Source of the DNA: Novosphingobium sp. SG919
GTDB taxonomy: Bacteria > Pseudomonadota > Alphaproteobacteria > Sphingomonadales > Sphingomonadaceae
Direction of reading: 5' to 3'
Assembly (NCBI RefSeq): GCF_012932495.1
Contig: NZ_JABCNG010000001.1
Span: 744,001 to 808,000 of the forward strand
Length of the DNA stretch: 64,000 nt
Shown here: positions 44,416 through 60,561 of the stretch, piece by piece
Position numbering within the stretch: position 1 is the stretch's first letter
Layout: every line of letters starts with the position of its first letter
Position numbers and translations under genes: made by a program
The notes under the pieces: generated by a model
Told to the model about the DNA's origin: nothing
Databases searched by the model: none
What the model saw: only the letters and a program-made list of their open reading frames with translations

Positions 44416-47235
44416 TCAATCGAACTTGAAGCGCGCGCCCAGGGCAAACGTGCGCGGACGCAAGGTGGAGCCCAGGTTGAACTGGTCCTGGTTCCCGGCG
44501 TTGCCGTACTTGTAGTAGTTCTGCTGCATCTCGCTGGTCAGGTTGACGGCATCGAACGTGATGCCGATGCGGTTGTTGACGTTGAGTGTCAGCTGGAAAT
44601 CCAGGCTCTTTTCCGGGCGGAACCACACACCGATGGGGTTGGCGAACAGCCGCGCTTCGTTGTTGTGCAGGAAGGCCTGGCGCCAGATGTAAGACAGGCG
44701 GGCCGAGATCGGACCCTTGTCGTAAGCCAGCGTGGCATTGTACGAGAACTTCGAGACGTTGAAGAACTGCGACTGCGTTTGCGTGATATTGCCGGCCGCG
44801 TCGCTTTCGGGAATGTTCTGCTTGGAATCGAGCACGGTGGCGCTGCCGGTCAGGCCCAGGCCGTTGAGCGGACCCGGCAGGAAATGCGGGAACCAGGTCA
44901 GGCCCACTTCCACGCCCTTGAGCACGCCGTCCGAGGCATTGACCGGGCGGCTGATCACGAAATGGTCGGTCGCGCCGGCGGTGATGCCGTTGTTGGGAAT
45001 GTATTCCAGCGCCGAAAGCGGCACGACGAGGCCATCGATTTCGCGGCGGAAACCGGTGACGTAGATCGCGCTGTCGCGGTCGAAGTACCATTCGACCGCC
45101 GCGTCGAAATTGCGCGAATGGGTCGGGCGCAGGGCCGCATTGCCGGCAACGCCGCTGCCATAGCCCACGTTGGTGAGATCGCCGGTGAGGGTGGGGTTGG
45201 GGTTGAGATCGGAAAAGTTCGGGCGGCGCAGCGTTTCGCCATAGTTGAAGCGCAGGCGCAGCTTGTCGGTCACGTCAAAGCGCGCAGTGAACGAGGGCAG
45301 GAAGCGTTCCGCCCCCACCGAACCACGCACCGGCAGGCCCTTGTTGGCGCCGAACGTGGCCATGAACACCGTGTCCGTGTCCACCGTGACAAAGCGTACG
45401 CCCGCTTCCAGGCGCAGCGGCCGGCCGAACAAGTCGATCTGGCCGTCGGCCTGGACATAGGCCGCCATGGTGCGCTCGTCGATGTCGAACACATGGTCGA
45501 GCGAGAGCTTGTCTGACGTGGGCATGCCATAGAGACCGCGCACGGTATCGGCGTTGTCGTTCAGCCACCAGCCGCTGGGCAGAGTCCAGCTGGTCGGCAC
45601 GCTGGCGCGGCCATCGAAGAAGTTGCTGTTGGTAAACAGCGCTTCGCTGGGCAGGGTGGACAGGTTCCGGCCCAGGCCGTTGGCGCTGGCGGTGCGGCTG
45701 TAGCTGGAGGCCTTGCGATCGTCATAGCGCATCCCCACTTTGATCTGGCGCAGGAAGCCGCTGTCCCAGGTGTAATGCCCATCAAGCGTCAGCGTGATCG
45801 CATTGCCGCTGGTCTTGCCGGCATTGTCGTAAAGCTGCGCGACGTTCCACTGCGTGGGGTCGGTCAGCAGCGCGTCGTCGTTGAAGTGATAGGACGCGAC
45901 GCCGCCGCCGGCATTGAAATCGGCCGTGATCTGCTTGGCCACGCGATCGGTGCGCATGGCGATGAACGTGGTTTCATTCGTGCTGGTCTGATAGGCGACA
46001 TCGGCAACGATGCCCCCGCGATTGCCCAGGTCCCACTTGCCGTTCAACGCATAGACATAGCTGTCGGTGCGGTTGGTGGTGAAATCGGCGCTGTTGAAGC
46101 CATAGACATCGTCCACCGTGCGCGACTTGACGATGTTGGTGCCGTCATAGAGCGAGACCGGCCCGGGATTGCCCCACCAATCGACGAAGCTGAACATCAG
46201 GCTGTTGAACGTCTCGCCCCGGAAGCCGGCGTAGAACGCTTCGGCGGTATAGGTCGAGCTGGGGTTGGGCGACCACTGCAGCGCGATATTGGCCGAGGGC
46301 CGCTCCCGCTTGCCATAGAGGTCGGAGCTGAACACCGCGTCGCGGCTCAGGTAATAGGGCGTGGCCACGCCGTTGATATTGAGCGTGGAGCCGGGCGCCG
46401 TTGGCAGGCCGGCATTGAGGCCCGGCGTCCAGTTCACGTTGTCGTCGCCCGGGAAAATGCGTTCGAGCGGCGATAGGCCCGAGCCGGCGGGCGGCGTTTC
46501 GGTGGCAAAGGGCACCAGCGCGCCGGCAGTGACCGACATGGTGCGGTACTTGCTGCGGCTCCAGCTCCCGTTGACCAGGATGCCCACGTCGCCGATCCCG
46601 GTTTCCCAGCGATCCGACACCAGCAGCGCCACGTTGGGGTTATAGCTGTTGGCCTGCTCGTCATAGATCCCGCGCACCAGGCCCGAGATGGTGAAGCCCT
46701 TGAAATCGAACGGGCGCCGGGTCTTCACGTCGATCTGGCCAGCCAGGCCCGTCTCGATCTGGTCGGCCGAGCGGGTCTTGTAGACATCGACCTGGCGGAT
46801 GAGGTTGGCCGAAATATCCTGGAGCGCGAACGATTGGCCCGCGGCGGTAAAGATGTTGCGGCCGTTGAGCGTGGTGAGCGGATCGGCCAGGCCGCGGATG
46901 GTCACGGTGCCGGCTTCGCCGCTGGCGCGGTCGGTCACCTGGATGCCGGTCACGCGCTGCAGGGCTTCGATCACGTTGTTGTCGGGCAGCTTGCCCACGT
47001 CTTCGGCGACGATGGAATCGATGATCTGCGTAGCCTGCTTGCGCACGTTGACCGCACCCACGATCGAGGCACGCACGCCGCTGACCACGATGGCACCGGC
47101 GACATCGCTGTCCGCCTGTGCATCGCTGGGCGTGGTCGGTGCTGCGGCGGGGGCGGCGTCTTGCGCGTGCGCAACGCTGCCCAAGGTGAGGGCCAGCACC
47201 GAAGCGGACGCGCATACAAATGTTCTGATTGCCAT
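44416..47235 (-). CDS. Large TonB-dependent receptor (Caulobacter/Xanthomonas type)
   Basis: The product is 939 residues. A signal peptide (to VAHAQ) is followed by GAIVVSGVRASIVGAVNVRKQA, a TonB-box region typical of this subfamily, and by the plug motifs DNNVIEALQRVTGIQVTD and IRGLADPLTTLNGRN. The barrel ends in RTFALGARFKFD. This subfamily usually imports oligosaccharides. It sits at the end of the arabinan gene set with a 25-base perfect-arm inverted repeat upstream that matches the proposed GntR operator, so its likely substrates are arabino-oligosaccharides. Confidence 0.92.
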   Translation of the reverse strand: MAIRTFVCASASVLALTLGSVAHAQDAAPAAAPTTPSDAQADSDVAGAIVVSGVRASIVGAVNVRKQATQIIDSIVAEDVGKLPDNNVIEALQRVTGIQVTDRASGEAGTVTIRGLADPLTTLNGRNIFTAAGQSFALQDISANLIRQVDVYKTRSADQIETGLAGQIDVKTRRPFDFKGFTISGLVRGIYDEQANSYNPNVALLVSDRWETGIGDVGILVNGSWSRSKYRTMSVTAGALVPFATETPPAGSGLSPLERIFPGDDNVNWTPGLNAGLPTAPGSTLNINGVATPYYLSRDAVFSSDLYGKRERPSANIALQWSPNPSSTYTAEAFYAGFRGETFNSLMFSFVDWWGNPGPVSLYDGTNIVKSRTVDDVYGFNSADFTTNRTDSYVYALNGKWDLGNRGGIVADVAYQTSTNETTFIAMRTDRVAKQITADFNAGGGVASYHFNDDALLTDPTQWNVAQLYDNAGKTSGNAITLTLDGHYTWDSGFLRQIKVGMRYDDRKASSYSRTASANGLGRNLSTLPSEALFTNSNFFDGRASVPTSWTLPSGWWLNDNADTVRGLYGMPTSDKLSLDHVFDIDERTMAAYVQADGQIDLFGRPLRLEAGVRFVTVDTDTVFMATFGANKGLPVRGSVGAERFLPSFTARFDVTDKLRLRFNYGETLRRPNFSDLNPNPTLTGDLTNVGYGSGVAGNAALRPTHSRNFDAAVEWYFDRDSAIYVTGFRREIDGLVVPLSALEYIPNNGITAGATDHFVISRPVNASDGVLKGVEVGLTWFPHFLPGPLNGLGLTGSATVLDSKQNIPESDAAGNITQTQSQFFNVSKFSYNATLAYDKGPISARLSYIWRQAFLHNNEARLFANPIGVWFRPEKSLDFQLTLNVNNRIGITFDAVNLTSEMQQNYYKYGNAGNQDQFNLGSTLRPRTFALGARFKFD

Positions 47236-47279
47236 GAAACACCCTCCCTGGTGGGCGGGCTGGTTGCCTCGCCCGATTT

Positions 47280-47304
47280 AGTCGGAGTATTTATTACTCC
47301 GACT
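47280..47304. promoter_or_regulatory. Double operator-like inverted repeat upstream of the large TonB receptor
   Basis: AGTCGGAGTA (47280-47289) and its exact reverse complement TACTCCGACT (47295-47304) are separated by TTTAT. Each arm carries the motif GTCGGAGTA also found upstream of the aldehyde dehydrogenase and between the permease and mutarotase genes. It lies 45 bases before the receptor start codon. Confidence 0.7.
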
Positions 47305-47415
47305 AATTCATGGCAAGAGATATTTTGTCAGCCGTGGCAACATTCAGAATAGGCTCTAGCACCAAGGCGGCGGCGCAAACCGGCCGCGACCTTGGCGATA
47401 TTCTGGTCTGACAAA

Positions 47416-48915
47416 TCAGTTGAGCGTCCACAGGCAGATGCGCGCATGGCGCGGCGCCAGGCGCAATGCCTGCCCTTGCGCCGCAAGGGCCTGGCCCGGC
47501 ACGGCCAGCGAGTCGAAGCGCCACTTGCCCTGCGGCAGTGCCACTGCGTGAAACAGCGCGGTGGGCGGAACTGCCTGGCCCGGCGCCAGCTCTACCAGTG
47601 TGGCGCTGCCGTCGCGTGCCACGGCCAATGCGGCATGGGGGCGCAGGATCGGCATTAGGCACACCGCGCCGGCCTGGCCGGGCAGGGGCGCCGTGCCCGG
47701 CGCCAGTTCGTTGAGCAGCGCGGGCAGGGGCACCTGGCGGAACTGGGTTTGCGCAAGGGGCGCGGTGCCCACCGCCACGCCGCCATCGCCGTGCAACAGG
47801 AAGCGGCCCGGCGCGCCGGCCGGCACCAGCCGATCGGGCAGGGCGCCGTTGCCCACCGGCACGCCGAAATCGGGCGTGCCATCGGCGTGGTAGTAAAGGC
47901 GTTGCACGCGGGTGTGGCGGTTGGGATCGAACAGCGGATCGCCCGTGATCGCGGCATAGTCGCGGCCGTGGTAGACCAGCATGTCGTGGCCGTGCTCGTC
48001 CACGGTGAAGCTGTTGTGCCCTGGCCCATAGACGCTGGTTTGCGGGCACGAGGTGAACACCGGGTGCTGGCTCTTGGCCCAGGCGCGCGGATCCATCAGG
48101 TCGGCATCGGTGTCGGCCGTCAACATGCCCAGGCAATAGCGCGCATCGGTGGCCGCCGCCGAATACGTGAGGAACAGGCGCCCGTTGCGGGCCAGCACCG
48201 CCGGCGCCTCGTTCACCTTGAAGCCGGGAATTTCCCAATCGAGCGTCGGCACCGACAGCCGCACCGGCGCACGGGCCGGCGTCAGTGCATCGGCCAGGGG
48301 CGCGAGGTAGAGATTGGAGTTGGTCTCGATCCCCGGTTCGCGCTGCGCCCAGCAGACATAGCGCACGCCCTTGTGCACGAACAGCGTGGAATCGAGCGTG
48401 AAGCTGTCCCACGGCCCCTTGAACTGGCCCAGCAGATGCCAGGTTCCCGTCAGCGGATCGGCATCGCGGCTGGTGAGCACATAAGTGCGGATGTGGAACG
48501 GATCGTCGCTGTCACCGGCGGCGAAATAGATATGCCAGGCGCCATCGAACCAATGCAGTTCGGGCGCCCAGATATAGCCGCCCAGCTTGCCGTTCGCGGG
48601 CCGGCGCCACACCACGTGCTCGCTGGCCGGATCGGCCAGTCCTGCCAGCGTCGGCGCGCGGCGAATGGCCAGCCGATCGTATTCCGGCACCGATCCCATC
48701 ATGTAATAGTGGCCATCGCCGTGGCGGAACACCTGGGCGTCGGCGCGCTGGCGCACCAGCGGGTTGCGTGGCGCAGGCAGGGCGCTGGCGTTGCCCCGCC
48801 CGGTGCCACGCCCGATGCCCCTTATCGCCGCGTGCGCCGCCATCGGGCTGGCCATCGAAAGGCCGGCCGCGCCCAGGGCAAAGGCGCGGCGGCTCAACAC
48901 GGGGGTGCGGCCCAT
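47416..48915 (-). CDS. GH43-family glycosidase with C-terminal extension
   Basis: The product is 499 residues. A twin-arginine-type leader (LSRRAFALGAAGL) targets it out of the cytoplasm. The five-bladed GH43 propeller shows its catalytic residues: D59 in RADAQVF, D175 in TLDSTLF and E236 in KVNEAPAV. These enzymes act on arabinosides or xylosides, and the context argues for arabinofuranosides. About 130 residues at the C-terminus form an extra beta-rich domain that I do not recognise and which may bind carbohydrate. It begins 3 bases after the preceding GH43 gene. Confidence 0.88.
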   Translation of the reverse strand: MGRTPVLSRRAFALGAAGLSMASPMAAHAAIRGIGRGTGRGNASALPAPRNPLVRQRADAQVFRHGDGHYYMMGSVPEYDRLAIRRAPTLAGLADPASEHVVWRRPANGKLGGYIWAPELHWFDGAWHIYFAAGDSDDPFHIRTYVLTSRDADPLTGTWHLLGQFKGPWDSFTLDSTLFVHKGVRYVCWAQREPGIETNSNLYLAPLADALTPARAPVRLSVPTLDWEIPGFKVNEAPAVLARNGRLFLTYSAAATDARYCLGMLTADTDADLMDPRAWAKSQHPVFTSCPQTSVYGPGHNSFTVDEHGHDMLVYHGRDYAAITGDPLFDPNRHTRVQRLYYHADGTPDFGVPVGNGALPDRLVPAGAPGRFLLHGDGGVAVGTAPLAQTQFRQVPLPALLNELAPGTAPLPGQAGAVCLMPILRPHAALAVARDGSATLVELAPGQAVPPTALFHAVALPQGKWRFDSLAVPGQALAAQGQALRLAPRHARICLWTLN

Positions 48916-48918
48916 GGC

Positions 48919-49971
48919 TCAATAATCCGCCACGGGCCAGCCATCGGCATCCCAGCGCACCGGCGCCAGGCGCATGGTGGATGCGCCGTTGTTGGCCTTG
49001 TCATAGGCGTGATAGACCACGTAGGTCTGCCCGTCCTTGTCGGTGAACGCGCCGGCATGGCCAGGGCCGCGGAAGCGCTGCTGCTCCTGAAGATCGGCGC
49101 GCAGGAACACGGTGCCGCCGCCCTGCATCATGTCGCTGCCGTCCTTGCCCAGATAGGGCCCGGTGATCTGCTTGGCGCGGCCGGCCACGGTGTAATACGT
49201 GCTTTGCGTGCCCTTGCAGCAATAGTCGTAGCTGGCGAGCAGGAAGTAATACCCGCCGTGCTGGAGGATGAACGGCGCCTCGATCGGGCCGGGTGCGCCG
49301 GCCGGGGCTGGGCGGCGGGCAATGCTGTAGGGCAGGGTGCCGGGCGCCGGCTTGCCGGTCTTGGGATCGAGCGGGAACAGCTTGATCCCGGTCCAGAAGC
49401 TGCCCAGCGCCAGCCAGTGCCGCCCCTGCGCATCGATCACGAAATTGGGATCGATGGCGTTGAAATCATCCGCCTGGGTCGACATCACGACCAGGCCCTG
49501 GTCTTTCCAGCCATAGTCCCTGGCCTTGGGATCGAGCGTCTTGCCGGTGAACAGCCCGATGGCCGAACGGTTCGATCCGAACGTCGAGACCGCATAATAC
49601 AGCCGGTATTCTCCGTTCACGAACGAGATGTCGGGCGCCCACATCTCGTGCGTGCCCGGCACCGCCTGCTTGGCCCATTCGGGAATGGCCGTGAACAGCG
49701 GGCCGGTGGCCGTCCAGTGCCTGAGATCGGTGGACGTGCGCGAGAGGATATAGTGCCCATCGTCACCCGGCACGCCGGTGCCATAGACGTGATAGGTATC
49801 GCCTTCGCGGATGATCACCGGATCGTGGGTGGGAACAAGGTCGCCGGTCAACTGGCTGTTGAGCGTTCCGGCAGCCTTTTCGCCCACTTGCTGTGCCACG
49901 GCCGGCGCGGCGAGCATCTGGGCGGGAAGGGCCAGGGCGGCGGCTGCCGCCAGCAGGGTTTTCGCGTTCAT
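48919..49971 (-). CDS. abnA: Arabinan endo-1,5-alpha-L-arabinosidase (GH43)
   Basis: The product is 350 residues with a Sec signal peptide ending near APAVAQQ. The GH43 residues are D50 in PTHDPVII, D174 in NAIDPNFV and E231 in GPIEAPFI, with the calcium-site-associated GPGHAGAF later. HEMWAPDISFVNGEYRLYYAVSTFG is the endo-arabinanase pattern. The enzyme would cut the arabinan backbone in the periplasm or at the surface. It lies 24 bases after the GH51 gene and 3 bases before the second GH43 gene. Confidence 0.9.
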   Translation of the reverse strand: MNAKTLLAAAAALALPAQMLAAPAVAQQVGEKAAGTLNSQLTGDLVPTHDPVIIREGDTYHVYGTGVPGDDGHYILSRTSTDLRHWTATGPLFTAIPEWAKQAVPGTHEMWAPDISFVNGEYRLYYAVSTFGSNRSAIGLFTGKTLDPKARDYGWKDQGLVVMSTQADDFNAIDPNFVIDAQGRHWLALGSFWTGIKLFPLDPKTGKPAPGTLPYSIARRPAPAGAPGPIEAPFILQHGGYYFLLASYDYCCKGTQSTYYTVAGRAKQITGPYLGKDGSDMMQGGGTVFLRADLQEQQRFRGPGHAGAFTDKDGQTYVVYHAYDKANNGASTMRLAPVRWDADGWPVADY

Positions 49972-49995
49972 GCAATCCTCTCCTCTTGCCCGCGC

Positions 49996-51558
49996 TCAGC
50001 GCAGGTCGAGCACCACGACCGACTTGGCCGGCAACGTGACGGTGAGCGTGCCGCCCTGGATGGTCGCGCCGGTGAACGGCGCGGGCTTGACCGCATCGGG
50101 TGTGCCAAAGGTGTTGTGCGCGTCCATGGTGGCGGCGGTCACCACCTGCCCGGCGGCGCTGCTGGCGGTCACCCCGTCCAGCTTGACCGTCACCGTGTTG
50201 GCCTGGCCCGGATCGCGGTTCGACAAGGCGACGTGGACCACGCCGGCCTTATCGCGCACGGCCGAGCCGCTGACGGCCGGCATGGTGAATTCGTCCTTGG
50301 CATACCATGGGCTGGCAATGTCGATCGGCAGCACCGTGGCATCCTGCCACGGCCGATACATCATGAAGACATGATAGGTGGGGGTGAGCACCATCTTCTT
50401 GCCTTCGGTCAGGATCATCGCCTGCAGCACGTTGACCATCTGGGCGATCGCCGAAAGCCGCACGCGATCGGCATGGCGGGCAAAGATATCCAGCGTGGTG
50501 GAGGCAACCAGCGCATCACGCAACGTATTCTGCTGCAACAGGAAGCCCGGGTGGCTGCCCGGTTCCTGGGCGTACCAGGTGCCCCATTCGTCCACCGCCA
50601 GGAACACGCGCTTTTGCGGGTCATACTTGTCCATGATCGCGCTGTGCCGCGTGACCAGTTCGTCCATGCGGCGCGCACCGGCCAGCGTCTCGGCCCAGCC
50701 GTGCTCGTCAAAGCCGGTGGCCGTGGCGCGCGGCGGCCAGCCGCCGGGAATGGTGTAATAGTGCAGCGATAGCCCGTCGATTTGGTCGCCAGCCAGGCGC
50801 ATGACCGTTTCGGTCCAGTTGTAGTCGTCCATGTTCGGGCCCGAGGCGATCTTGAGCACGCGGGTGCCCGCTGGCGCCTTGATGAACGTGGCAAAGCGGC
50901 GGGTCTCGTCGGCGGCATATTCGGGGCGCATGCTGCCGCCGCAACCCCACAGCTCGTTGCCGATGCCGAACAGGGGCAGTGCCCAGGCGCCCTTGTGCCC
51001 GTTGCGGGCGCGTTCTTCGGCCAGGCTACCGGCCGGTGACGTGATGTATTCCACCCATTCGGCCATTTCGCGCGCCGTGCCATTGCCCACGTTGCCCGAG
51101 ATATAGGCTTGGGAACCCACTTGGCGCAGCAACTCGAAATATTCGTGCGTGCCTACGGCGTTGGGTTCGGTCACGCCGCCCCAGTTGGTGTTGATCTTGA
51201 CCGGGCGCTTGGCCTGCGGGCCGATGCCTTCGCGCCAATGATATTCATCGGCAAAGCAACCGCCCGGCCAGCGGATCACCGGCACTTTCAGTTCGCGCAG
51301 CGCGCCGATCACGTCGTTGCGGAAGCCGTTGGTGTTGGGGATCGACTTGTCGTTGCCCACCCACAGGCCGCCATAGATGCCGTTACCCAGATGCTCGGCA
51401 AACTGCGTAAAGATACGCGCGTCATACGTCGGCCCCGGCTTGTCGGCGTGGAGCGTCGCCGTGGTCGGCTGGCCGGCGGTATCGGCCAGCGCGGGCACAG
51501 CAAGGGCGCTCGCTGCCAGCAGTGCAGCGGCAGCGGTGTGGCGAATTGTCTTGATCAT
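49996..51558 (-). CDS. abfA: Alpha-N-arabinofuranosidase (GH51)
   Basis: The product is 520 residues. It releases L-arabinose from arabino-oligosaccharides. A signal peptide (AALLAASALAVPALA) precedes the GH51 domain with IRWPGGCFADEYHW. The acid/base is E202 in GIGNELWG and the nucleophile is E324 in AVDEWGTWY. A C-terminal beta-sandwich follows. The start at 51558 is chosen because GAGAGGAC precedes it; the ATG at 51579 lies before this ribosome-binding site. An exported GH51 is less common than a cytoplasmic one and fits digestion before uptake. Confidence 0.93.
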   Translation of the reverse strand: MIKTIRHTAAAALLAASALAVPALADTAGQPTTATLHADKPGPTYDARIFTQFAEHLGNGIYGGLWVGNDKSIPNTNGFRNDVIGALRELKVPVIRWPGGCFADEYHWREGIGPQAKRPVKINTNWGGVTEPNAVGTHEYFELLRQVGSQAYISGNVGNGTAREMAEWVEYITSPAGSLAEERARNGHKGAWALPLFGIGNELWGCGGSMRPEYAADETRRFATFIKAPAGTRVLKIASGPNMDDYNWTETVMRLAGDQIDGLSLHYYTIPGGWPPRATATGFDEHGWAETLAGARRMDELVTRHSAIMDKYDPQKRVFLAVDEWGTWYAQEPGSHPGFLLQQNTLRDALVASTTLDIFARHADRVRLSAIAQMVNVLQAMILTEGKKMVLTPTYHVFMMYRPWQDATVLPIDIASPWYAKDEFTMPAVSGSAVRDKAGVVHVALSNRDPGQANTVTVKLDGVTASSAAGQVVTAATMDAHNTFGTPDAVKPAPFTGATIQGGTLTVTLPAKSVVVLDLR

Positions 51559-51590
51559 CGTGTTCTTGTCCTCTCCCAAAAAGGGGTGGG

Positions 51591-52517
51591 TCAGTCGAAG
51601 AAAGCGTCTGTCACCAGCCGTTTGCCGCGCAAGAATGCGTCAGCTACCAAGGTCAGCGGCGCCAGGTCGACATCGCTGCGGCCGCTGCGGATCAGGGTGG
51701 CAAAGCGGGCATAGAGGCCAGGGTATTCGTGGTCCTCGTTGTGTAGCGTCTCGCTCGGCAAGGTCAGCACGGCGCCGCCCTGGGCCAGGCGCAGCGTGCC
51801 GGCGTCGGTTTCCACCACGATGTCCCAGCTTTGCGGGCCGGTCTGCCGCCAATCCAGGTCCATGTGGATGGCCGCCCCGGCCGTATCGCGGAAATGCAGG
51901 TCTGCAGCGATCGGTGCCGCGCGGTTTTCGGGAATTTCCAGCGTCGCTTCGGACAGGAAGAACGGGCGCGGCAGGATATGGGTGATGATCGAAAGGGCGT
52001 TGATGCCCGGATCGAACACGCCCAGCCCGCCTGGCTGCCAGATCCAGGCCTGGCCGGGGTGCCACACGCGCACGTCTTCGCGCCAGATCACTTTCACGCT
52101 ATCGATGCGCCGCTCCGCCAGCCACGCGCGCGCCGGGGCAACCCCGGCGGCAAAGCGCGAATGCCACGAGGCAAACAGCGTTGCGCCCACGCGATCGGCC
52201 TGGTTGGCCAGGGTATGGACTTCCGCCAGCGTCGCGCCCGGCGGCTTTTCCAGGAACACGTGCACGCCCTTGGCCAGGGCTTGCGCCGCCAGGTCATAGC
52301 GCACCTGGGGCGGGGTGCAGAGCGCCACGGCATCGACCGCCGGCCCTTGCGCCAGGAGATCGTCCAGGCTGCGATGGTGCGAGATGCCCTCCACGCCGGA
52401 ATCGCGCGGGCTGACCGTGGCGGCCAGGCTGAACGCCGGGTTTCCGGCAATGGCCGGCAGGTGCTGGTCACGGGCGATCTTGCCCATGCCCACCACGGCA
52501 ATGCGGATCGGGTCCAT
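51591..52517 (-). CDS. araA: L-arabinose 1-dehydrogenase (Gfo/Idh/MocA family)
   Basis: The product is 308 residues. The Rossmann start is IAVVGMGKIARDQH and the family lysine is K91 in FLEKPPG. The segment REDVRVWHPGQAWIWQPGG and the D169/N173 pair in FDPGINALS closely resemble the NAD(P)-dependent L-arabinose 1-dehydrogenase of Azospirillum and the related D-galactose 1-dehydrogenase. Either sugar could be a substrate, since they differ only at C6, and the arabinan context favours L-arabinose. It ends the sugar oxidation block in the operon, 4 bases after araD1. AraA here means the dehydrogenase, not the E. coli isomerase. Confidence 0.87.
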   Translation of the reverse strand: MDPIRIAVVGMGKIARDQHLPAIAGNPAFSLAATVSPRDSGVEGISHHRSLDDLLAQGPAVDAVALCTPPQVRYDLAAQALAKGVHVFLEKPPGATLAEVHTLANQADRVGATLFASWHSRFAAGVAPARAWLAERRIDSVKVIWREDVRVWHPGQAWIWQPGGLGVFDPGINALSIITHILPRPFFLSEATLEIPENRAAPIAADLHFRDTAGAAIHMDLDWRQTGPQSWDIVVETDAGTLRLAQGGAVLTLPSETLHNEDHEYPGLYARFATLIRSGRSDVDLAPLTLVADAFLRGKRLVTDAFFD

Positions 52518-52521
52518 CGGC

Positions 52522-53520
52522 TTAGAGCGCCTTTACCGCAAAGGGCACCGGGCCGGCCGCGGCGCGGGCCAGCGGATTGTGCAGCGGCAGGGCAAAGGGC
52601 GCGGCGCTGATTTCAAAGGCATCGCCTTCGCGCGTTGCGATCCCGTCGCTGAACGACAGCGTGGCCGTGCCGAAGAAGTGCACGTGGATGTCGCCCGGGC
52701 GGCGGAACAGGCCGTACTTGAAGTGGTGATGCTCCAGGTTGGCCAGGCTGTGCGACATGTTGTCCTCGCCCGAAAGGAACGGCTTTTCCCACAGCGTGGC
52801 GCCGTCGCGCAGCACGCGGCTGGTGCCGCGCACGTCGGCCGGCGGGGTGCCCAGCAGCAGTTCGGCGCCAAGGGCTGCCTGGCGCAGCTTGGAATGGGCC
52901 AGCCACAGGTAGTTGTGGCGCTCGGTCACGTGGTCGGAAAACTCGTTGGCCAGGGCCAGGCCCAGGCGCCAGGGCGTGCCGTCCTCGCCGATCAGGTAGA
53001 TGCCGGCCAGTTCCGGTTCCTCGCCGCCATCCTTGGCAAAGGCGGGCATGGTCAGCGGCTGGCCGGGGCCGACGAGCTGCGTGCCATCCCCCTTGTAGAA
53101 CCATTCCGGTTGCTGCCCTTCGGCGCCCGGCGCGGGCTTGCCGCCTTCCAGCCCTTCCAGGAACATGCGCATGGAATCGGTCTGCTTTTCCGCCTGGGCG
53201 GCATCGCGGTGCATCTTGTCGCGCCCTTCGGCCGAACCAAGATGGGTCAGGCCCGTGCCGGTCAGCCAGACACGCGCCGTGTCGCTGTGGTCGATCGCGG
53301 GCAGCAGGGTGCCGGCGGCAAGCTCGGCCGCGATGTCCACGCTCTGGCTGCTGGCGCGGGCTGCGGCAGCTTCGGCCAGGCTCTGCCCGGCGGCGATGGC
53401 GGCCTGCGCCAGTTCGCGCACGGTGGCGGGCTGTTCCAGGAACACGGCGGTGTCATCGGTGGCCAGGATCACGCGGCGCACGCCATCGGCGCTGCGGTGT
53501 TGAAGAAGGCGGGTTGCCAT
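52522..53520 (-). CDS. araD1: AraD1/GguC-type FAH-family protein, probable 2-keto-3-deoxy-L-arabinonate dehydratase
   Basis: The product is 332 residues with the fumarylacetoacetate-hydrolase fold in its C-terminal two thirds: GGEEPELAGIYLIGEDG, LALANEFSDHVTERHNYLWLAHSK (the metal site), and KPFLSGEDN. The family is called AraD1 or GguC. In oxidative pentose pathways FAH-fold proteins can act as the second dehydratase that makes 2-oxoglutarate semialdehyde. No DHDPS-type araD is present beside the cluster, so this gene most likely fills the step. It lies 32 bases after the ALDH gene. Confidence 0.78.
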   Translation of the reverse strand: MATRLLQHRSADGVRRVILATDDTAVFLEQPATVRELAQAAIAAGQSLAEAAAARASSQSVDIAAELAAGTLLPAIDHSDTARVWLTGTGLTHLGSAEGRDKMHRDAAQAEKQTDSMRMFLEGLEGGKPAPGAEGQQPEWFYKGDGTQLVGPGQPLTMPAFAKDGGEEPELAGIYLIGEDGTPWRLGLALANEFSDHVTERHNYLWLAHSKLRQAALGAELLLGTPPADVRGTSRVLRDGATLWEKPFLSGEDNMSHSLANLEHHHFKYGLFRRPGDIHVHFFGTATLSFSDGIATREGDAFEISAAPFALPLHNPLARAAAGPVPFAVKAL

Positions 53521-53552
53521 GGATCGGATGCTTTCTGCGAAAAGGGAAGGGA

Positions 53553-55079
53553 TCAGAGCGTGAGCGTGCCGTCGATCAGGCGCGGCGCGCCATCGCCGCG
53601 CGCAGCGTCGGTCAATTCTGCCGGCAGCACCGCCGCGCTCAGGTTCTGGTAGCTGACCGGACGGAGGAAGCGATCGATCGCCAGGCTGCCGACCGACGTG
53701 GTGCGCGGGTCCGACGTGGCCGGGAACGGACCGCCGTGGACCATGGCGTGGCACACTTCCACCCCGGTGGGCCAGCCATTGGCCAGGATGCGGCCAGCCT
53801 TGCGCTCCAGGATCGGCAGCAGCCGGGCGGCGAGCGGTTCGTCGGCCGCGTCCATGTGCAGCGTGGCGGTCAGCTGGCCTTCCAGGCCCTTGAGCAGGCT
53901 GGCCAGTTCGGCTTCATCGGCGCATTTCACCACGATGGAACTGGCGCCGAACACTTCGTGGCCCAGTGCCTTGTCGGCCAGGAAGGCCTGCGCGGTGGTG
54001 ACGAACAGCGCGGCGTTGCCGCAGGGCCCGTCGCCCGCCGGGCCGGTTGCCACGGTTTCCACGCCGGGCGCGGTGGCCAGGGCCTTGACCCCCGCTTCAT
54101 AGGCGGCGTGGATGCCGGTGGTCAGCATGGTCTGCGGCGCGGCTGCGCCCACGCCTTCGCGCGCGGCCGCCAGGAACGCGTCGAGCCCGTCGCTGTCGAT
54201 TGCCAGCACCAGGCCGGGATTGGTGCAGAACTGCCCGGCGCCCATGGTGAGCGAGCCGACGAAGGCCTGGCCCAGGGCCGCACCACGCGCGGCAAGCGCC
54301 TCGGGCAGCAGCAGCACGGGATTGATGCTCGACATTTCAGCATAGACCGGGATCGGCACGTCGCGCGCCTGCGCGATGCGGGCCAGCGCCAGGCCGCCCC
54401 CGCGCGAGCCGGTGAAGCCCACCGCCGCAATGCGCGGATCGGCCACCAGCGCGGCGCCCAGATCGTTGCCGGGGCCGACCAGGTGGCCGAACACGCCTTC
54501 GGGCAGGCCACGGGCCGCCACCGCGCGGGCAATCGCCGCGGCCACCAGCGCCCCGGTTTCGGGATGGGCGGGGTGGCCCTTGACCACCACCGGGCAGCCG
54601 GCCGCGAGGGCCGAGGCGGTGTCACCCCCGGCCGTGGAAAACGCCAGCGGGAAATTCGATGCGCCGAACACCGCCACCGGGCCCAGCGGGATCATGCGCA
54701 GGCGGATATCGGGGCGGGGCAGAGGCTGGCGATCGGGCAATGCGGGATCGATGCGCAGCTGCTGCCAGCCGCCCGCGCGCACGACGCCGGCAAACATGCG
54801 CAACTGGCCCACGGTGCGGCCGCGTTCACCTTCCAGGCGCGCGCGCGGCAGGCCGCTTTCGCGCATCGCCGCCTCGATCAGCGGATCGCCGATGTCCAGG
54901 ATTTCCTGGGCGATGGCTTCCAGGAACAAGGCGCGCTCCTCGCGCCCGGTGGCGCGATAGCTGTCGAACGCCGCTTCGGCCGCGGCACAAAGCCGCGCCA
55001 CGTCTTCCAATCCGTGCACGGCCAGGGCGGGGCCGTGGGGCAGCCCGGTGCGGGCGTCGATCGAGCGGAATTCGGTCAT
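53553..55079 (-). CDS. 2-oxoglutarate semialdehyde dehydrogenase (NADP+-type ALDH)
   Basis: The product is 508 residues, of the NADP-aldehyde dehydrogenase group, and would make 2-oxoglutarate, the end product of the pathway. The oxyanion asparagine is in [11 protein letters not shown], the general base is E248 in PVYAEMSS and the nucleophile is C285 in [10 protein letters not shown]. The ATG at 55079 is chosen because GGAG lies 6 bases upstream; the frame is open to 55139. The operator-like motif at 55093-55108 lies just before the start. It heads the operon that runs to 47416. Confidence 0.9.
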
Positions 55080-55092
55080 CGGATTCTCCATA

Positions 55093-55108
55093 TTTACTCC
55101 GACATATT
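55093..55108. promoter_or_regulatory. GntR operator-like site in the ALDH/GntR divergent gap
   Basis: Read on the minus strand the site is ATGTCGGAGTAAA, sharing GTCGGAGTA with the double site at 47280-47304 and GTCGGA-TA with the site at 57516. It starts 13 bases before the ALDH start codon and lies 85 bases before the GntR start, so it could serve both genes. Confidence 0.65.
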
Positions 55109-55192
55109 CCGGCTTGGCGGCAAACGCAATAATAGTCATTTCGCCCTTGCGCGCTCCCTGCTAACCACATTGGCCAGGAGGCGGCACAAACA

Positions 55193-55987
55193 GTGACGGA
55201 ACGGCATATTCCCGGCAATTCGGCAGACGGCAGCGCTGCCCCGGCCGATCGTGAAGAGGCTCTGCGGGGGCTTGGGCGCGGCCCCGGACGGCGGCTGCAC
55301 GGTGCCATTGCGCACAAGTTGGGCACGGCGATCTTGTCTGGCCAATACCAGCCCGGTGACATCCTTTCGGGTGAAGTCGCCTTTGCCGAGGAACTCAAGG
55401 TTTCGCGTAGCGCCTATCGCGAGGCGATCCAGGTCCTGACGGCCAAGGGCCTGGTGGCGAGCCGCCCCAAGGCGGGCACGCGCGTGCTGCCGCGCGAGCG
55501 CTGGAACCTGCTCGATCCCGAAGTGCTGGCCTGGGCCTTTGCCGGCGAGCCCGACCTGCAATTCGTGCGCGACTTGTTCGAATTGCGCGCCGTGGTCGAG
55601 CCGGCCGCCGCGCGCCTGGCCGCACAGCGCCGCGACAAGGCCGATCTCAAGGCCATGCGCGATGCCCTTGCCGCCATGCGCCGCCACACCCTGACCAACG
55701 ATGCCGGCCGCGCCGCCGATCGCGATTTCCACGATGCCATCCTGCGCGCCAGCCACAATGCGGCGCTGCTGGTGCTGTCGGCCAGCATCGGCGCGGCCGT
55801 GCACTGGACCACGCAGTTCAAGCAACGCGCCCGCGAACTGCCGCGCAATCCCATCCCCGATCACGCGCGGGTCTATGACGCGATTGCCGATGGCGATGGC
55901 GATGCTGCCGCCCAGGCAATGGGCGTGCTGGTGCAACTCGCGCTCGAAGACACCGCCAGCGCGATCGAAGCGGCAGTGCAAGGCTGA
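55193..55987 (+). CDS. FadR-subfamily GntR transcriptional regulator
   Basis: The product is 264 residues, from a GTG start with AGGAGG upstream. The winged helix-turn-helix covers about residues 35-105, with AILSGQYQPGDILSGEVAFAE, VSRSAYREAIQVLTAKGLV and SRPKAGTRVLPR. The C-terminal FCD domain has the metal-binding residues in FELRAVVEPAAARLA, RDFHDAILRASHN and HARVYDAIADGD. Members of this subfamily sense sugar acids or their breakdown products. It is divergent from the L-arabinose oxidation operon and is its probable repressor. Confidence 0.92.
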   Translation: MTERHIPGNSADGSAAPADREEALRGLGRGPGRRLHGAIAHKLGTAILSGQYQPGDILSGEVAFAEELKVSRSAYREAIQVLTAKGLVASRPKAGTRVLPRERWNLLDPEVLAWAFAGEPDLQFVRDLFELRAVVEPAAARLAAQRRDKADLKAMRDALAAMRRHTLTNDAGRAADRDFHDAILRASHNAALLVLSASIGAAVHWTTQFKQRARELPRNPIPDHARVYDAIADGDGDAAAQAMGVLVQLALEDTASAIEAAVQG

Positions 55988-55991
55988 TTGT

Positions 55992-56133
55992 TCCTCCCCG
56001 GCACGGGGAGGGGGCCGCGCTAAGCGTGGTGGAGGGGATTGGCCGCCTGCAGCGGCGCTCAAGGCTCACAATCCCCTCCGCCAGCCTGCGGCTGGTTCCC
56101 CTCCCCACGAGTGGGGAGGGAGCAATCAGTCCG
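55992..56133. repeat. Multi-hairpin intergenic repeat (CCCCTCCG family), copy 2
   Basis: CCTCCCCGGCACGGGGAGG starts the element. GGTGGAGGGGATTG is matched by CAATCCCCTCCGCC, and the right part has CCTCCCC-ACGAG-TGGGGAGG. Order and sequence resemble the element at 10572-10699. Its right end reaches the stop codon of the permease gene, which it may help terminate. Confidence 0.65.
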
Positions 56134-57427
56134 CTGTCTTGGTTTTCGCGCCCCACAGCGCATAGAACACGATGTAAAGCTCGCAAGCCGCGGTCAGCAG
56201 GAACGAGGTCTGCAGGCCAAAGGCATCGGCCAGCTTGCCCTGCACCACCACCAGCGCGCCGCCGGCAATGGCCATGATCAGCAGGCCCGAGGCTTCCTCG
56301 GTCAGCGGGCCCAGGCCCTTGATCCCCAGCGTGAAGATCGTGGGGAACATGATCGAGTGGAACAGGCCCACCAGGATCAGCGCCCACATCGCCACCGGGC
56401 CATGGGTGAGCACGGTGATCATCATCACCACGAAAGCGCCGACGGCGGCTAGCGCCAGCACGGTTTCGGCGCGCACCTTCTGCATGATCGCGCCGCCGGC
56501 AAAGCGGCCCACCATCATCCCGCCCCACAGGAACGTGAGGTAACGCCCGGCTTCCTCGTGCGTGAGGTTGGCGATGTCACCCTGGCTGACGAAATTGACG
56601 AAGAGGTTGGCCACGCCGATTTCGGCGATCAGGTAGATGAAGATTGCCGGAATGCCGAACACCAGGTTGCGGTGCGACCACAGCGAGTGATGCTTGCGTT
56701 CCTCGCGCGCCATGCGGCTGGTGGCGCTGCCCATGGCGGGCAGGGGATAGCGTGCGATCACCACGGCCAGGACCACCAGCACAACCGCGACCAGGCCATA
56801 GGGCAGGATCACCGAATGCGCGTCGGCCAGGCGTTCCGCCGGGGTCAGCACCGTGCCGGCCACGGCTGTCCCGCTCTTGGACCTGCCCAGGATGAGATAG
56901 GCGCCGAACAGCGGCGCCAGCATCGTTCCGGCCGAATTGAGCGCCTGCACGAGGGTGAGCCGCGACGAAGCGGTTTCCGCCGGGCCGACCACCGCGACAT
57001 AGGGATTGGCCGCCACCTGCAGCAGCGTGATGCCGCTGGCGATCACGAACAGCATGACCAGCGTGACGCCGTAGGACGGGATCGATGCCGCCACCATCAT
57101 GCCCAGTGCGCCCGCCGCCATGATCAGCAGCCCGGTGACCATCGACAGCTTGTACCCGATCTTCTCGATCAGCTTGGCCGAAGGAATCGACGCCACGAAA
57201 TAGGCGATGAACCACACGGATTCGATCAGTGTTGTCTGGGTATAGTTCAGATCGAACACGGCGCGCAGATGCGGCAGCAGCGTGTTGTTGATGACGGTGA
57301 TGAAGCCCCACATGAAGAACAGTGTGGCCAGCAGCGCCAGTGCGCGACCATAGCTGGCGCCAGCAGGCAAGCCTTCGCCAGGGGTCGCGGATAGCGCGGC
57401 CGATGAAGCAACAGGGGGCATGTCCAT
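56126..57427 (-). CDS. MFS sugar permease (FucP-like)
   Basis: The product is 433 residues with about 12 membrane segments. LATLFFMWGFITVINNTLLPHL is the FucP-family first helix and QVAANPYVAVVGP the conserved motif of the fucose/glucose proton symporters. NYTQTTLIESVWFIAYFVASIPSA completes the pattern. By context it should carry L-arabinose. The start at 57427 has GGAAG upstream. It is divergent from the mutarotase gene with an operator-like site between them. Confidence 0.92.
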   Translation of the reverse strand: MDMPPVASSAALSATPGEGLPAGASYGRALALLATLFFMWGFITVINNTLLPHLRAVFDLNYTQTTLIESVWFIAYFVASIPSAKLIEKIGYKLSMVTGLLIMAAGALGMMVAASIPSYGVTLVMLFVIASGITLLQVAANPYVAVVGPAETASSRLTLVQALNSAGTMLAPLFGAYLILGRSKSGTAVAGTVLTPAERLADAHSVILPYGLVAVVLVVLAVVIARYPLPAMGSATSRMAREERKHHSLWSHRNLVFGIPAIFIYLIAEIGVANLFVNFVSQGDIANLTHEEAGRYLTFLWGGMMVGRFAGGAIMQKVRAETVLALAAVGAFVVMMITVLTHGPVAMWALILVGLFHSIMFPTIFTLGIKGLGPLTEEASGLLIMAIAGGALVVVQGKLADAFGLQTSFLLTAACELYIVFYALWGAKTKTAD

Positions 57428-57515
57428 CCTCTCTTCCAAGGTTTGTGCAAGAAGAGAACAATGAACGGGCGTATGCCAGTGGACAGGCGCCACGCGAACC
57501 GGCTTGCACTCTTTC

Positions 57516-57532
57516 TATTTGTCGGACTATAT
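57516..57532. promoter_or_regulatory. GntR operator-like site between permease and mutarotase
   Basis: The site reads ATTTGTCGGACTATATG. TTGTCGGACTA fits the general FadR-subfamily pattern TNGTNNNACNA exactly and shares GTCGGA-TA with the sites at 47280 and 55093. It lies 88 bases before the permease start and 83 bases before the mutarotase start. Confidence 0.68.
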
Positions 57533-57615
57533 GCGATGCCACGGCCGCGTCAATGGCTGCACACGTGTTTTCACGTGGCTCCCCAGGGCAGAACGGGTCG
57601 ATCATGGAGAACAGG

Positions 57616-58755
57616 ATGAACACGAAGGCCGCTTCCCTTGCCGCGCTTCTCGCGCTTGCGCCCTTTTCGGGTGCCCACGCCGCGCAGGCGAGCCAGGAGG
57701 CCGCCGGCACGCTGGCCGATGGGCAGAAGGTTGTCGCGGTCACGCTCAAGGCCGCCAATGGCGTTTCGGCCCGCATCCTGAGCTATGGCGCCACGCTCCA
57801 GGCGCTGGTCGCGCCCGATCGCCAGGGCAAGCCGGCCGACGTGCTGCTCGGCTACGACGATCTGGCCGGCTATGTCGATCATCCCAACTATTTCGGCGTC
57901 ACTGTCGGCCGCTATGCCAACCGCATTGCCAGCGGCAAGTTCGCGCTTGATGGCAAGACCTATCAACTCCCGCTCAACGACAACAAGATCAACAGCCTGC
58001 ACGGCGGCGGCAAGGGCTTCGACAAGCAGGTCTGGCAGGTTGTCTCGGTCAAATCCGGGCCGGTGGCGAGCGTCGTACTCAGCCACGTCAGCCCCGATGG
58101 CGATGCCGGCTATCCCGGCACGGTCAAGGCCACGGTCACCTATTCGCTGGACGAGGCGGGCAACCTGACCATCGCGTTCGAAGCGGCCACCGACAAGCCC
58201 ACGATCATCAACATGACCAACCACGCCATTTTCAACCTGGCCGGCGAAGGCGCGTCGCAAGGGGCGATGGACCATGTGCTGACCATTCCGGCCAAGGCCT
58301 ATACCCCGGTCGATGCCGGTCTCATCCCCACCGGCGAACTGCGCCCGGTGGCCGGCACGGTGTTCGATTTCACGCAAGGGCGCCGCGTGGCCGATGGCCT
58401 GCGCGACGGGCGCGACCAGCAGATCGTCTATGGGCGCGGCTATGACCACAACTTTGCCCTCGACAAGGGCGTGACCGCCCAGCCCGAACTGGCCGCGCGC
58501 CTGGAAGACCCTGCCTCGGGCCGCGTGCTCGAAGTCTTGACCACCGAGCCCGGCGTGCAGTTCTATGCCGGCAATTTCCTCGATGGCACGCTGGTGGGCA
58601 AGCAGGGCCACCTCTATCGCATGGGCGATGGCATCGCGCTGGAACCGCAGAAGTTCCCCGATGCACCCAATCACCCGTCGTTCGTTTCCGCGCGCGTCGA
58701 TCCCGGCAAGCCCTATCGGCATGTCATGATCTATCGCGTTTCCACCTCGCGCTGA
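57616..58755 (+). CDS. galM: Exported aldose 1-epimerase (mutarotase)
   Basis: The product is 379 residues. A signal peptide (MNTKAASLAALLALAPFSGAHA) precedes the GalM domain: GATLQALVAPDRQGKPADVLLGYD, GVTVGRYANRIASGKF, INSLHGGGKGFDKQVW, the catalytic histidine in MTNHAIFNL and the catalytic glutamate in LTTEPGVQFYAGN. The start at 57616 has GGAG 6 bases upstream; an ATG at 57604 is possible. It would interconvert anomers of L-arabinose before the dehydrogenase step and is the first gene of the plus-strand arabinose operon. Confidence 0.93.
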   Translation: MNTKAASLAALLALAPFSGAHAAQASQEAAGTLADGQKVVAVTLKAANGVSARILSYGATLQALVAPDRQGKPADVLLGYDDLAGYVDHPNYFGVTVGRYANRIASGKFALDGKTYQLPLNDNKINSLHGGGKGFDKQVWQVVSVKSGPVASVVLSHVSPDGDAGYPGTVKATVTYSLDEAGNLTIAFEAATDKPTIINMTNHAIFNLAGEGASQGAMDHVLTIPAKAYTPVDAGLIPTGELRPVAGTVFDFTQGRRVADGLRDGRDQQIVYGRGYDHNFALDKGVTAQPELAARLEDPASGRVLEVLTTEPGVQFYAGNFLDGTLVGKQGHLYRMGDGIALEPQKFPDAPNHPSFVSARVDPGKPYRHVMIYRVSTSR

Positions 58756-58764
58756 CAGGCAGAC

Positions 58765-60561
58765 ATGACCGACCACCAGACCCCCAAGCTGCGCAGCCGC
58801 GCCTGGTTTGATAACCCCGACAATATCGACATGACCTCGCTCTATCTGGAGCGGTACCTCAATTTCGGGATCAGCCTGGAAGAGCTGCGCAGCGGCAAGC
58901 CGATCATCGGCATCGCGCAGACCGGCAGCGACCTTTCCCCGTGCAACCGCCACCACCTGGTGCTGGCCGAGCGTATCCGCGAAGGCGTGCGCGAGGCAGG
59001 CGGCATCGTCTTGGAATTTCCGGTCCATCCGATCCAGGAAACCGGCAAGCGGCCCACTGCCGGGCTCGATCGCAACCTCGCCTATCTCGGCCTGGTCGAA
59101 GCGCTCTATGGCTATCCGATCGATGGCGTGGTGCTGACCACCGGGTGTGACAAGACCACCCCCGCGCTGCTGATGGCGGCGGCCACGGTCAACATTCCCG
59201 CCATTGCCCTCTCGGTCGGCCCCATGCTCAACGGCTGGCACAAGGGCGAGCGCACCGGTTCGGGCACCATCGTGTGGAAAGGCCGCCAGTTGATGGCCGC
59301 CGGCGAACTCGATGCCGAAGGGTTCATCAAGCTGGTCGCGTCTTCGGCGCCATCCACCGGCTATTGTAACACCATGGGCACGGCCACCACGATGAACAGC
59401 CTGGCCGAAGCGCTGGGCATGATGCTGCCCGGTTCGGCCGCGATTCCCGCGCCCTATCGCGATCGCCAGGAATGCGCCTATCACACCGGCAAGCGCATCG
59501 TTGACATGGTGCGCGAAGACCTCAAGCCTTCCGACATCCTCACGCTCGATGCGTTCCACAACGCCATCGTGGTCAATTCCGCGATCGGCGGATCGACCAA
59601 CGCGCCGATCCACCTGGCCGCGATTGCCCGCCACGTGGGCGTGGACCTGCCGCTCGACGACTGGCAGCGCCTGGGCCACAAGGTGCCCTTGCTGGTCAAC
59701 CTGCAGCCAGCGGGCGAATACCTGGGCGAGGATTACTATCGCGCCGGCGGCGTGCCGGCCGTGGTCGGCCAGTTGATCGACCAAGGCCTGATCCGTGAGC
59801 AGGCGATGACCGTCAACGGCCGCACCATGGGCGAAAACTGCCGTGGCGTGGAAATCGAGGACGAGCGCGTGATCCGCCCGTTCGCCCAGCCACTGGTCGA
59901 AGAAGCCGGCTTCCTGGTGCTCAAGGGCAACCTGTTCGACGCCGCGATCATGAAAACCAGCGTGATCAGCGAGGAATTCCGCGCGCGCTATCTTTCGAAC
60001 CCGGCCGATCCCGACGCGTTCGAAGGCCCCTGCGTGGTGTTCGACGGGCCGGAAGACTATCACCACCGCATCGACGATCCGGCGGTGGGGATCACGCCCG
60101 AAACCTTGCTGTTCATGCGCGGCGCCGGGCCGATCGGCTATCCGGGCGCGGCCGAAGTGGTCAACATGCGCCCGCCGGCCTACCTCATCACCGAAGGCGT
60201 CAGCGCGCTGCCGTGCATCGGCGACGGGCGTCAATCGGGCACCAGCGGCAGCCCCTCGATCCTCAATGCCAGCCCGGAAGCGGCGGCGATGGGCGGCCTG
60301 GCGCTGCTCGAAACCGGGGACCGGGTGCGCATCGATCTCAACGCCGGCACGGTGAACGTGCTGGTTGCCGACGATGTGCTGGAAGCGCGCCGCGCTGCGC
60401 TGGTGGCCAAGGGCGGCTATCCCTATCCCGCCAGCCAGACGCCGTGGCAGGAAATCCAGCGCGCGCTGGTGGGCCAGATGAACACCGGTGCCATCCTGGA
60501 AGGCGCGGAAAAGTACCAGCGCATTGCCCAGACCCGTGGGCTGCCGCGCGACAACCATTGA
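58765..60561 (+). CDS. araC: L-arabinonate dehydratase (IlvD/Edd family)
   Basis: The product is 598 residues. The three iron-sulfur ligands of sugar-acid dehydratases are C60 (DLSPCNRHH), C128 (TTGCDKTTP) and C201 (TGYCNTMG); K129 in the CDK motif is the magnesium-binding lysine. Cysteine positions match the 2Fe-2S arabinonate/xylonate dehydratase group rather than IlvD. It converts L-arabinonate to 2-keto-3-deoxy-L-arabinonate. The gene starts 9 bases after galM and precedes the lactonase. The name araC here is the dehydratase of the oxidative route, not the E. coli regulator. Confidence 0.92.

Follow-up and report, generated by a model that had tools for sequence, protein, structure and literature searches.

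Operators of a putative FadR-type GntR repressor of L-arabinose genes in Novosphingobium and related Sphingomonadaceae

We analysed a 64 kb stretch of Novosphingobium sp. SG919 DNA (64,000 nucleotides of a 5.45 Mb genome; hereafter the window) in which the short motif GTCGGASTA (S, G or C) recurs in front of genes of a predicted L-arabinose pathway, and we conclude, with a probability of roughly 0.83, that a local repressor dedicated to these genes, the FadR-type GntR protein encoded at 55193-55987, uses this motif as its operator. The original prediction, made by eye, had placed the motif as a double site before a TonB-dependent receptor gene, once in the gap between the aldehyde dehydrogenase (ALDH) and GntR genes and once between the permease and mutarotase genes, and nowhere else in the window. 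An exact search of the 64 kb retrieves these four sites and no other match in the window; 300 first-order Markov simulations of the window yielded 0.16 matches on average and 2 at most, with four or more in 0/300. The exact matches, the operators that contain them and the one predicted promoter are as follows.

47281-47289, plus strand: exact GTCGGASTA match
47295-47303, minus strand: exact GTCGGASTA match
55095-55103, minus strand: exact GTCGGASTA match
57521-57529, plus strand: exact GTCGGASTA match
47278-47306, no strand: double operator upstream of the receptor gene, with 11-bp sites at 47279-47289 (plus strand) and 47295-47305 (minus strand)
55095-55105, minus strand: operator in the ALDH/GntR gap
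57519-57529, plus strand: operator in the permease/mutarotase gap, overlapping the predicted permease -10
57526-57553, minus strand: predicted permease promoter (TTGACG, 16 nt, TATAGT; mean in shuffles 0.0)

The arms of the double operator, 12 bp each, form a perfect inverted repeat, and the centres of its two sites lie 16 bp apart, a spacing of about 1.5 helical turns. With gene starts chosen by ribosome-binding sites, the distance from an upstream operator centre to the gene start is 49 and 65 bp for the receptor, 20 bp for ALDH, 94 bp for GntR, 97 bp for the permease and 92 bp for the mutarotase. FadR-subfamily operators are described as short palindromes of the form GT-N(2-3)-AC (PMC4494728, excerpt), and the earlier statement that the permease/mutarotase site fits the FadR pattern TNGTNNNACNA exactly proved right for 57519-57529, alone among the four window sites.

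The same motif is conserved in front of the orthologous genes of relatives. Among 298 genomes of the family, 86 have a relative of the regulator at E<=1e-25; the nearest named ones belong to Novosphingobium pokkalii (89%) and N. capsulatum (86%). In a training set of 60 loci around the best regulator matches (the first 62 minus two), with genes mapped, we looked for a fixed core, [AT]GTC[CG]GA[CG][AT][AT], within 200 bp upstream of each gene. In 34 of these loci the regulator shows 66% identity or more, and among them the core stands upstream of the permease in 21/24, the mutarotase in 21/25, ALDH in 14/16, the receptor in 6/7 and the regulator in 21/34 cases, upstream of the dehydratase in 5/25 and AraD1 in 2/22, and never upstream of the internal genes (Gfo/Idh/MocA dehydrogenase, Gfo, 0/23; GH51 0/21; the two GH43 genes 0/13 and 0/12) or of the lactonase gene (0/10). 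Two hundred permuted patterns gave averages of at most 0.3 per gene, with single patterns reaching up to 4 (Gfo up to 15). Because the core and the model described below had been drawn up from the training loci, a second set of 76 loci (80 named loci minus four that duplicate training loci) served as a check, in which the core stands upstream of ALDH in 39/40, of the regulator in 75/76, of the permease in 56/63 and of the mutarotase in 57/63 cases. It also precedes AraD1 in 29/68 and GH51 in 6/67 of these held-out loci, and was found before none of the Gfo (0/63), dehydratase (0/37), lactonase (0/21) and GH43 (0/4 and 0/6) genes; averages over 200 permuted patterns were 0.02 to 0.90 per gene. 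The held-out loci are close kin, so these counts are not independent. The motif is present and conserved in the orthologous gaps of related genomes, and so the absence that would have spoken against the original prediction was not observed.

These comparisons also bear on which protein reads the site. Since GntR operators look alike and the genome itself encodes two further GntR relatives at 36-37% identity, a paralogue or an unlinked factor might recognise the motif and the neighbouring GntR protein control something else. We regard this as very improbable, given the near-constant presence of the core within 200 bp of the 55193-type regulator gene in the held-out loci, the shift of the operator centre along with the regulator clade (see below), and the behaviour of genomes in which no regulator was found: among 80 such genomes, 9 have the dehydratase (E<=1e-150), and the core is upstream of it in 0/10 loci, one of these loci carrying a core ~860 bp beyond the dehydratase gene.

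Exact matches to TNGTCGGASTA number six in the whole genome. Three are in the window; two, inside a GMC-oxidoreductase-like open reading frame (ORF; L005) and an integrase-like ORF (L006), were taken as chance once the translations had been read; and the sixth, at C1:1426788, lies ~620 kb from the window, 30 to 40 bp before an ORF whose product has a GH127 beta-L-arabinofuranosidase domain (6.3e-107). A 17-bp model, trained on relatives plus the window, gave five matches in this genome at E<=10, each of them in front of arabinose-type genes: the GH127 site and the four known from the window. The GH127 site is absent from the training rows, and the same five matches return when the window's receptor rows are left out of the model; this reduced version (R2) still includes, from relatives that share those letters, a pair of 17-mers that match the other two window sites letter for letter. 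The full site is therefore not frequent in unrelated promoters of this genome, a frequency that would have spoken against the original prediction. The training rows were 42 different 17-mers picked by eye out of 55, to which an iterated weight matrix had led by way of 127 sites, 69 of which passed a selection on score, gene and absence of TGCC or GCCGG; the 13 excluded 17-mers had A/T at the centre, GTA or GGG. The weight matrix itself was dropped, having drifted to sites within the coding sequence that precedes the dehydratase gene, and a degenerate 13-mer was dropped as a test, since its presence in 240/298 genomes, against 86 with a regulator relative, made it unusable. Within the 42 training sites the second half-site reads AC in 19 and AG in 23, and an improved notation for the site is T-N-GTC(G/C)GA(C/G)-T-A, with a variable second half-site.

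Applied to 12 related genomes at E<=3, the model gave 29 matches, 24 of them in arabinose-cluster gaps. Three others precede one GH27 and two GH43 genes, all in G057, and the remaining two lie inside a gene (L178) or were assigned to no gene (L169). The matches before the two further GH43 genes of G057 are at C1:1540933 and 1545375 (L180, L183), and one of these genes lies beside a LacI-type regulator gene. Relatives of the GH127 gene (30 of 43 matches had loci) have the core upstream in 6/13 genomes whose regulator reaches 70% identity versus 0/17 others (one-sided probability 0.003), and the regulon probably also includes this unlinked gene. Two of the 17 other genomes (L133, L141), both from the sister clade described below, have an A/T-centred operator upstream of GH127, as if the predicted target had been retained through the change of operator. 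In five loci (L128, L135, L139, L140, L149) a CGTATAC-type element replaces the operator, which suggests that those GH127 genes may be under another regulator. In the genome of the window, the GH127 operator occupies G000:C1:1426786-1426799 (L004:1499-1512), and a GTCTGACCA element lies ~80 bp further upstream.

Several results weigh against our reading of the motif. With one mismatch allowed, the excess of GTCGGASTA in the window vanishes (11 found, 9.8 expected), and the degenerate 13-mer occurs 3 times in the genome compared with 4 for the reversed control, so that specificity must reside in the full site and its position. Three of the four window sites read GTCGGAG, with AG in place of the FadR-consensus AC in the second half-site. 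Taken one by one, the whole-genome matches have weak E-values (0.35 to 4.7), and the scan scored only 150/979 first-look candidates; as no single match is significant, the weight lies in all five preceding arabinose-type genes. The core is missing within 200 bp of the regulator gene in 13/34 training loci, before 7/63 held-out permeases and before GH127 in 7/13 genomes with a close regulator. Single permuted patterns in the held-out loci reach 8 for ALDH, 16/76 for the regulator, 15 for the permease, 14 for the mutarotase and 26/68 for AraD1, because related promoters share other letters too. Finally, scanning the receptor and ALDH gaps of the window for promoters retrieved none of the consensus type. 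The one-mismatch and degenerate counts would also fit chance sites or a repeat family unrelated to regulation, an explanation that is next to impossible given the simulations, the genome scan and the conservation in held-out genomes.

The placement of the operators relative to promoter elements points to repression. In held-out permease promoters the distance from the start of a TTGAC element to the operator downstream of it is 23 nt in 52/56 cases and 24 nt in 4/56, and in 36/39 held-out ALDH promoters an element of the TTGCG or TTGMC type begins 25 nt upstream of the operator. An operator fixed in place over a promoter argues for a repressor, and these sequences are best read as promoters that a repressor would shut off by occlusion. 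The sign of regulation is unreadable from sequence, and the receptor double site could serve activation, so that an activator or a dual regulator might be envisaged in place of a pure repressor; this is quite improbable, however, because the operator overlaps the predicted permease -10 at a fixed spacing and, at ALDH, is centred 20 bp from the gene start, and a protein bound at either position would stand in the way of transcription. The double operator with the same 16-bp spacing was found in L295, L287 and L289, and thus in 4/12 receptor promoters including that of the window; the others have a single site close to the gene, in some cases accompanied by another element upstream, and no receptor was found in L296. 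We discounted a short terminator-like hairpin over the receptor operator (1 found, 0.3 expected), which belongs to the inverted repeat. At 47400-47416 of the window, ~110 bp upstream of the nearer receptor operator, lies ATTTGTCAGACCAGAAT, which resembles the site more weakly (16.4 bits by the iterated weight matrix) and is possibly an auxiliary or looping site; a second element ~100 bp upstream likewise occurs in L061 and L294.

The product of 55193 had been called a FadR-type GntR protein, and its domains bear this out, with a GntR winged helix (PF00392, 4.5e-13) followed by an FCD domain (PF07729, 1.8e-25). Its best solved relative is 7C7E (3.9e-32), which is E. coli DgoR, a protein for which D-galactonate is the reported inducer (PMC7674646, excerpt). 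By alignment, the Asp and His metal ligands of the FCD domain are present: D176, H180 and H224, together with R132, are kept in 61/61 aligned relatives and correspond to the DgoR ligands D146/H150/H195 and to R102. The DgoR galactonate contacts R179, W181, D184 and T191 are not kept, aligning to T206, Q208, Q211 and P220 in the gapped part of one pairwise alignment; the comparison covers these four, DgoR Q173 being placed in an insertion and the aligned part ending before S221 and R224. With the metal ligands conserved and the aligned galactonate contacts not, the effector is likely a metal-held sugar acid of the L-arabinose route, and we favour L-arabinonate, then 2-keto-3-deoxy-L-arabinonate, as the inducer.

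The sites and their conservation, the overlap with a predicted promoter, the occurrence together with the regulator and the gene families are directly shown by the sequences; we infer binding, the choice of repression over activation, the effector and the boundaries of the units in the following scheme. Without the sugar, repressor dimers would sit on 11-bp near-palindromes that overlap or abut promoters and would block RNA polymerase at the receptor gene, at the unit ALDH-AraD1-dehydrogenase-GH51-GH43-GH43 with the divergent regulator gene, at the permease gene, at the divergent unit mutarotase-dehydratase-lactonase and at the unlinked GH127 gene. L-arabinose, on entering, would be oxidised to an acid intermediate (most likely L-arabinonate or 2-keto-3-deoxy-L-arabinonate), which would be held by the metal of the FCD domain and release the repressor, switching on the route from outer-membrane uptake to 2-oxoglutarate. 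The proposal that a single GntR protein coordinates receptor, catabolic operon and permease is thus supported by the conserved sites; its extension to the regulator's own gene is less direct, because the site in the ALDH/GntR gap is much nearer ALDH, and autoregulation is predicted as likely.

The genes of the cluster are listed here.

44416-47235, minus strand: TonB-dependent receptor, TIGR01782 type; double operator upstream
47416-48915, minus strand: GH43 glycoside hydrolase
48919-49971, minus strand: GH43 glycoside hydrolase
49996-51579, minus strand: alpha-L-arabinofuranosidase (Alpha-L-AF_C), GH51 type; true start perhaps slightly downstream
51591-52517, minus strand: L-arabinose/D-galactose 1-dehydrogenase, Gfo/Idh/MocA
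52522-53520, minus strand: AraD1 family protein, likely 2-keto-3-deoxy-L-arabinonate dehydratase; GguC model above cut-off
53553-55079, minus strand: ALDH, likely 2-oxoglutarate semialdehyde dehydrogenase
55193-55987, plus strand: FadR-type GntR regulator (GntR + FCD), proposed operator reader
56126-57427, minus strand: MFS sugar permease, gluP/FucP type
57616-58755, plus strand: aldose 1-epimerase (mutarotase); N-terminus signal-peptide-like by eye
58765-60561, plus strand: IlvD/Edd sugar-acid dehydratase
60618-61484, plus strand: SMP-30/gluconolactonase-like lactonase

A minus-strand run comprises ALDH, AraD1, the dehydrogenase, the GH51-type gene and two GH43 genes, with the receptor gene next, and the permease gene is divergent from the run mutarotase, IlvD/Edd dehydratase and lactonase. 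The dehydrogenase, lactonase, dehydratase, keto-deoxy-acid dehydratase and semialdehyde dehydrogenase families are all present, in two operator-sharing units, and by family the set is that of an oxidative L-arabinose route, with substrates predicted. For AraD1 no Pfam match and no solved relative were found, and the ALDH reaches no NCBIfam equivalog cut-off, so that its substrate is taken from context.

Resemblance to galactose-pathway enzymes makes D-galactose a possible further substrate. The dehydrogenase is closest to the solved D-galactose 1-dehydrogenase 4EW6 (1.6e-120) and then to the L-arabinose 1-dehydrogenase 6JNJ (3.5e-103), and the permease passes a glucose/galactose transporter model. 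The dehydratase is closest to the galactonate dehydratase 7M3K, misses the curated L-arabinonate dehydratase model NF009559 (517 bits, cut-off 882) and has as its top model the dihydroxy-acid dehydratase subfamily NF009560 (1024 bits). The regulon might then serve D-galactose, or D-galactose together with L-arabinose, instead of L-arabinose alone, which we consider rather unlikely: AraD1 passes its model and, with ALDH, fits the pentose branch leading to 2-oxoglutarate, and the GH51, GH43 and GH127 genes found here belong to families having arabinose-releasing members.

FadR-type operators and sugar-acid regulators are of a well-known kind (PMC4494728, excerpt). The domain plan is that of DgoR, the FadR-type GntR repressor of D-galactonate use in Escherichia coli, which has two inverted repeats overlapping its promoter as here (PMC7674646, excerpt); unlike DgoR, the regulator described here would act on a different sugar and at several promoters, with an outer-membrane receptor among the putative targets. 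The nearest published prediction that we found, likened by description only, is AraR2 of Halomonas, a GntR-family protein predicted likewise for oxidative L-arabinose/L-arabinonate genes but differing in its Halomonas host, a TRAP transporter and a second, LysR-family regulator (PMC5507952, excerpt). AraR of Bacillus subtilis shares the arabinose regulon and the GntR-type DNA-binding region but has a GalR/LacI-type effector domain where the 55193 protein has FCD (PMC4494728, excerpt), and BtAraR of Bacteroides, also with an arabinose regulon, is of the NrtR family (PMC4666351, excerpt). Our literature search had no Sphingomonadales GntR arabinose regulator among the matches listed, and RegPrecise and supplementary files, outside its scope, may hold such a prediction. 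This is a well-supported sugar regulon of an ordinary kind for which our searches brought up no description. With it, a sugar pathway of Novosphingobium, Sphingobium, Sphingomonas and their kin gains a likely regulator, an operator and an almost complete regulon; unlinked members such as GH127 are predicted, and promoters expected to answer to arabinose are singled out.

The operator centre varies with the regulator. A tree of 61 regulators, its root drawn at midpoint, has two sides, each fully supported; with each locus labelled by the majority of its sites, the window's side (40 loci) has 27 loci with a G/C centre, 2 with A/T, 6 ties and 5 without a site, and the other side (21 loci) has 13 with A/T, 1 with G/C, 1 tie and 6 without a site. 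Residue 80, which ends the recognition-helix motif, is Gln in 27/28 G/C loci and Arg in 13/15 A/T loci. Among 20 further test loci, those with Arg80 have 9 A/T and 1 G/C centres and 6 without a site, and those with Gln80 have 3 G/C centres and 1 tie; Gln80 is found in all 76 held-out loci. These data led us to a tentative proposal, somewhat likelier to fail than to hold, that two sister clades control equivalent Sphingomonadaceae arabinose clusters and that the change of the central base pair with Gln80->Arg is a natural specificity switch. Shared ancestry could explain much of the association, and other residues, residue 99 among them, separate the operator classes as well as or better than residue 80. 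Among the genomes with both paralogues, the two loci are of different kinds in G057; in G217 one is A/T-centred and the other lacks a site; and in G262 both have mixed sites, which speaks against a strict residue/operator rule. If the proposal is true, the switch could let both paralogues work in one cell. The clade with the altered centre provides a natural experiment on DNA choice by FadR-type proteins. The sister-clade loci are L095-L119 and L274-L293, with operators mostly A/T-centred and residue 80 mostly Arg, not Gln.

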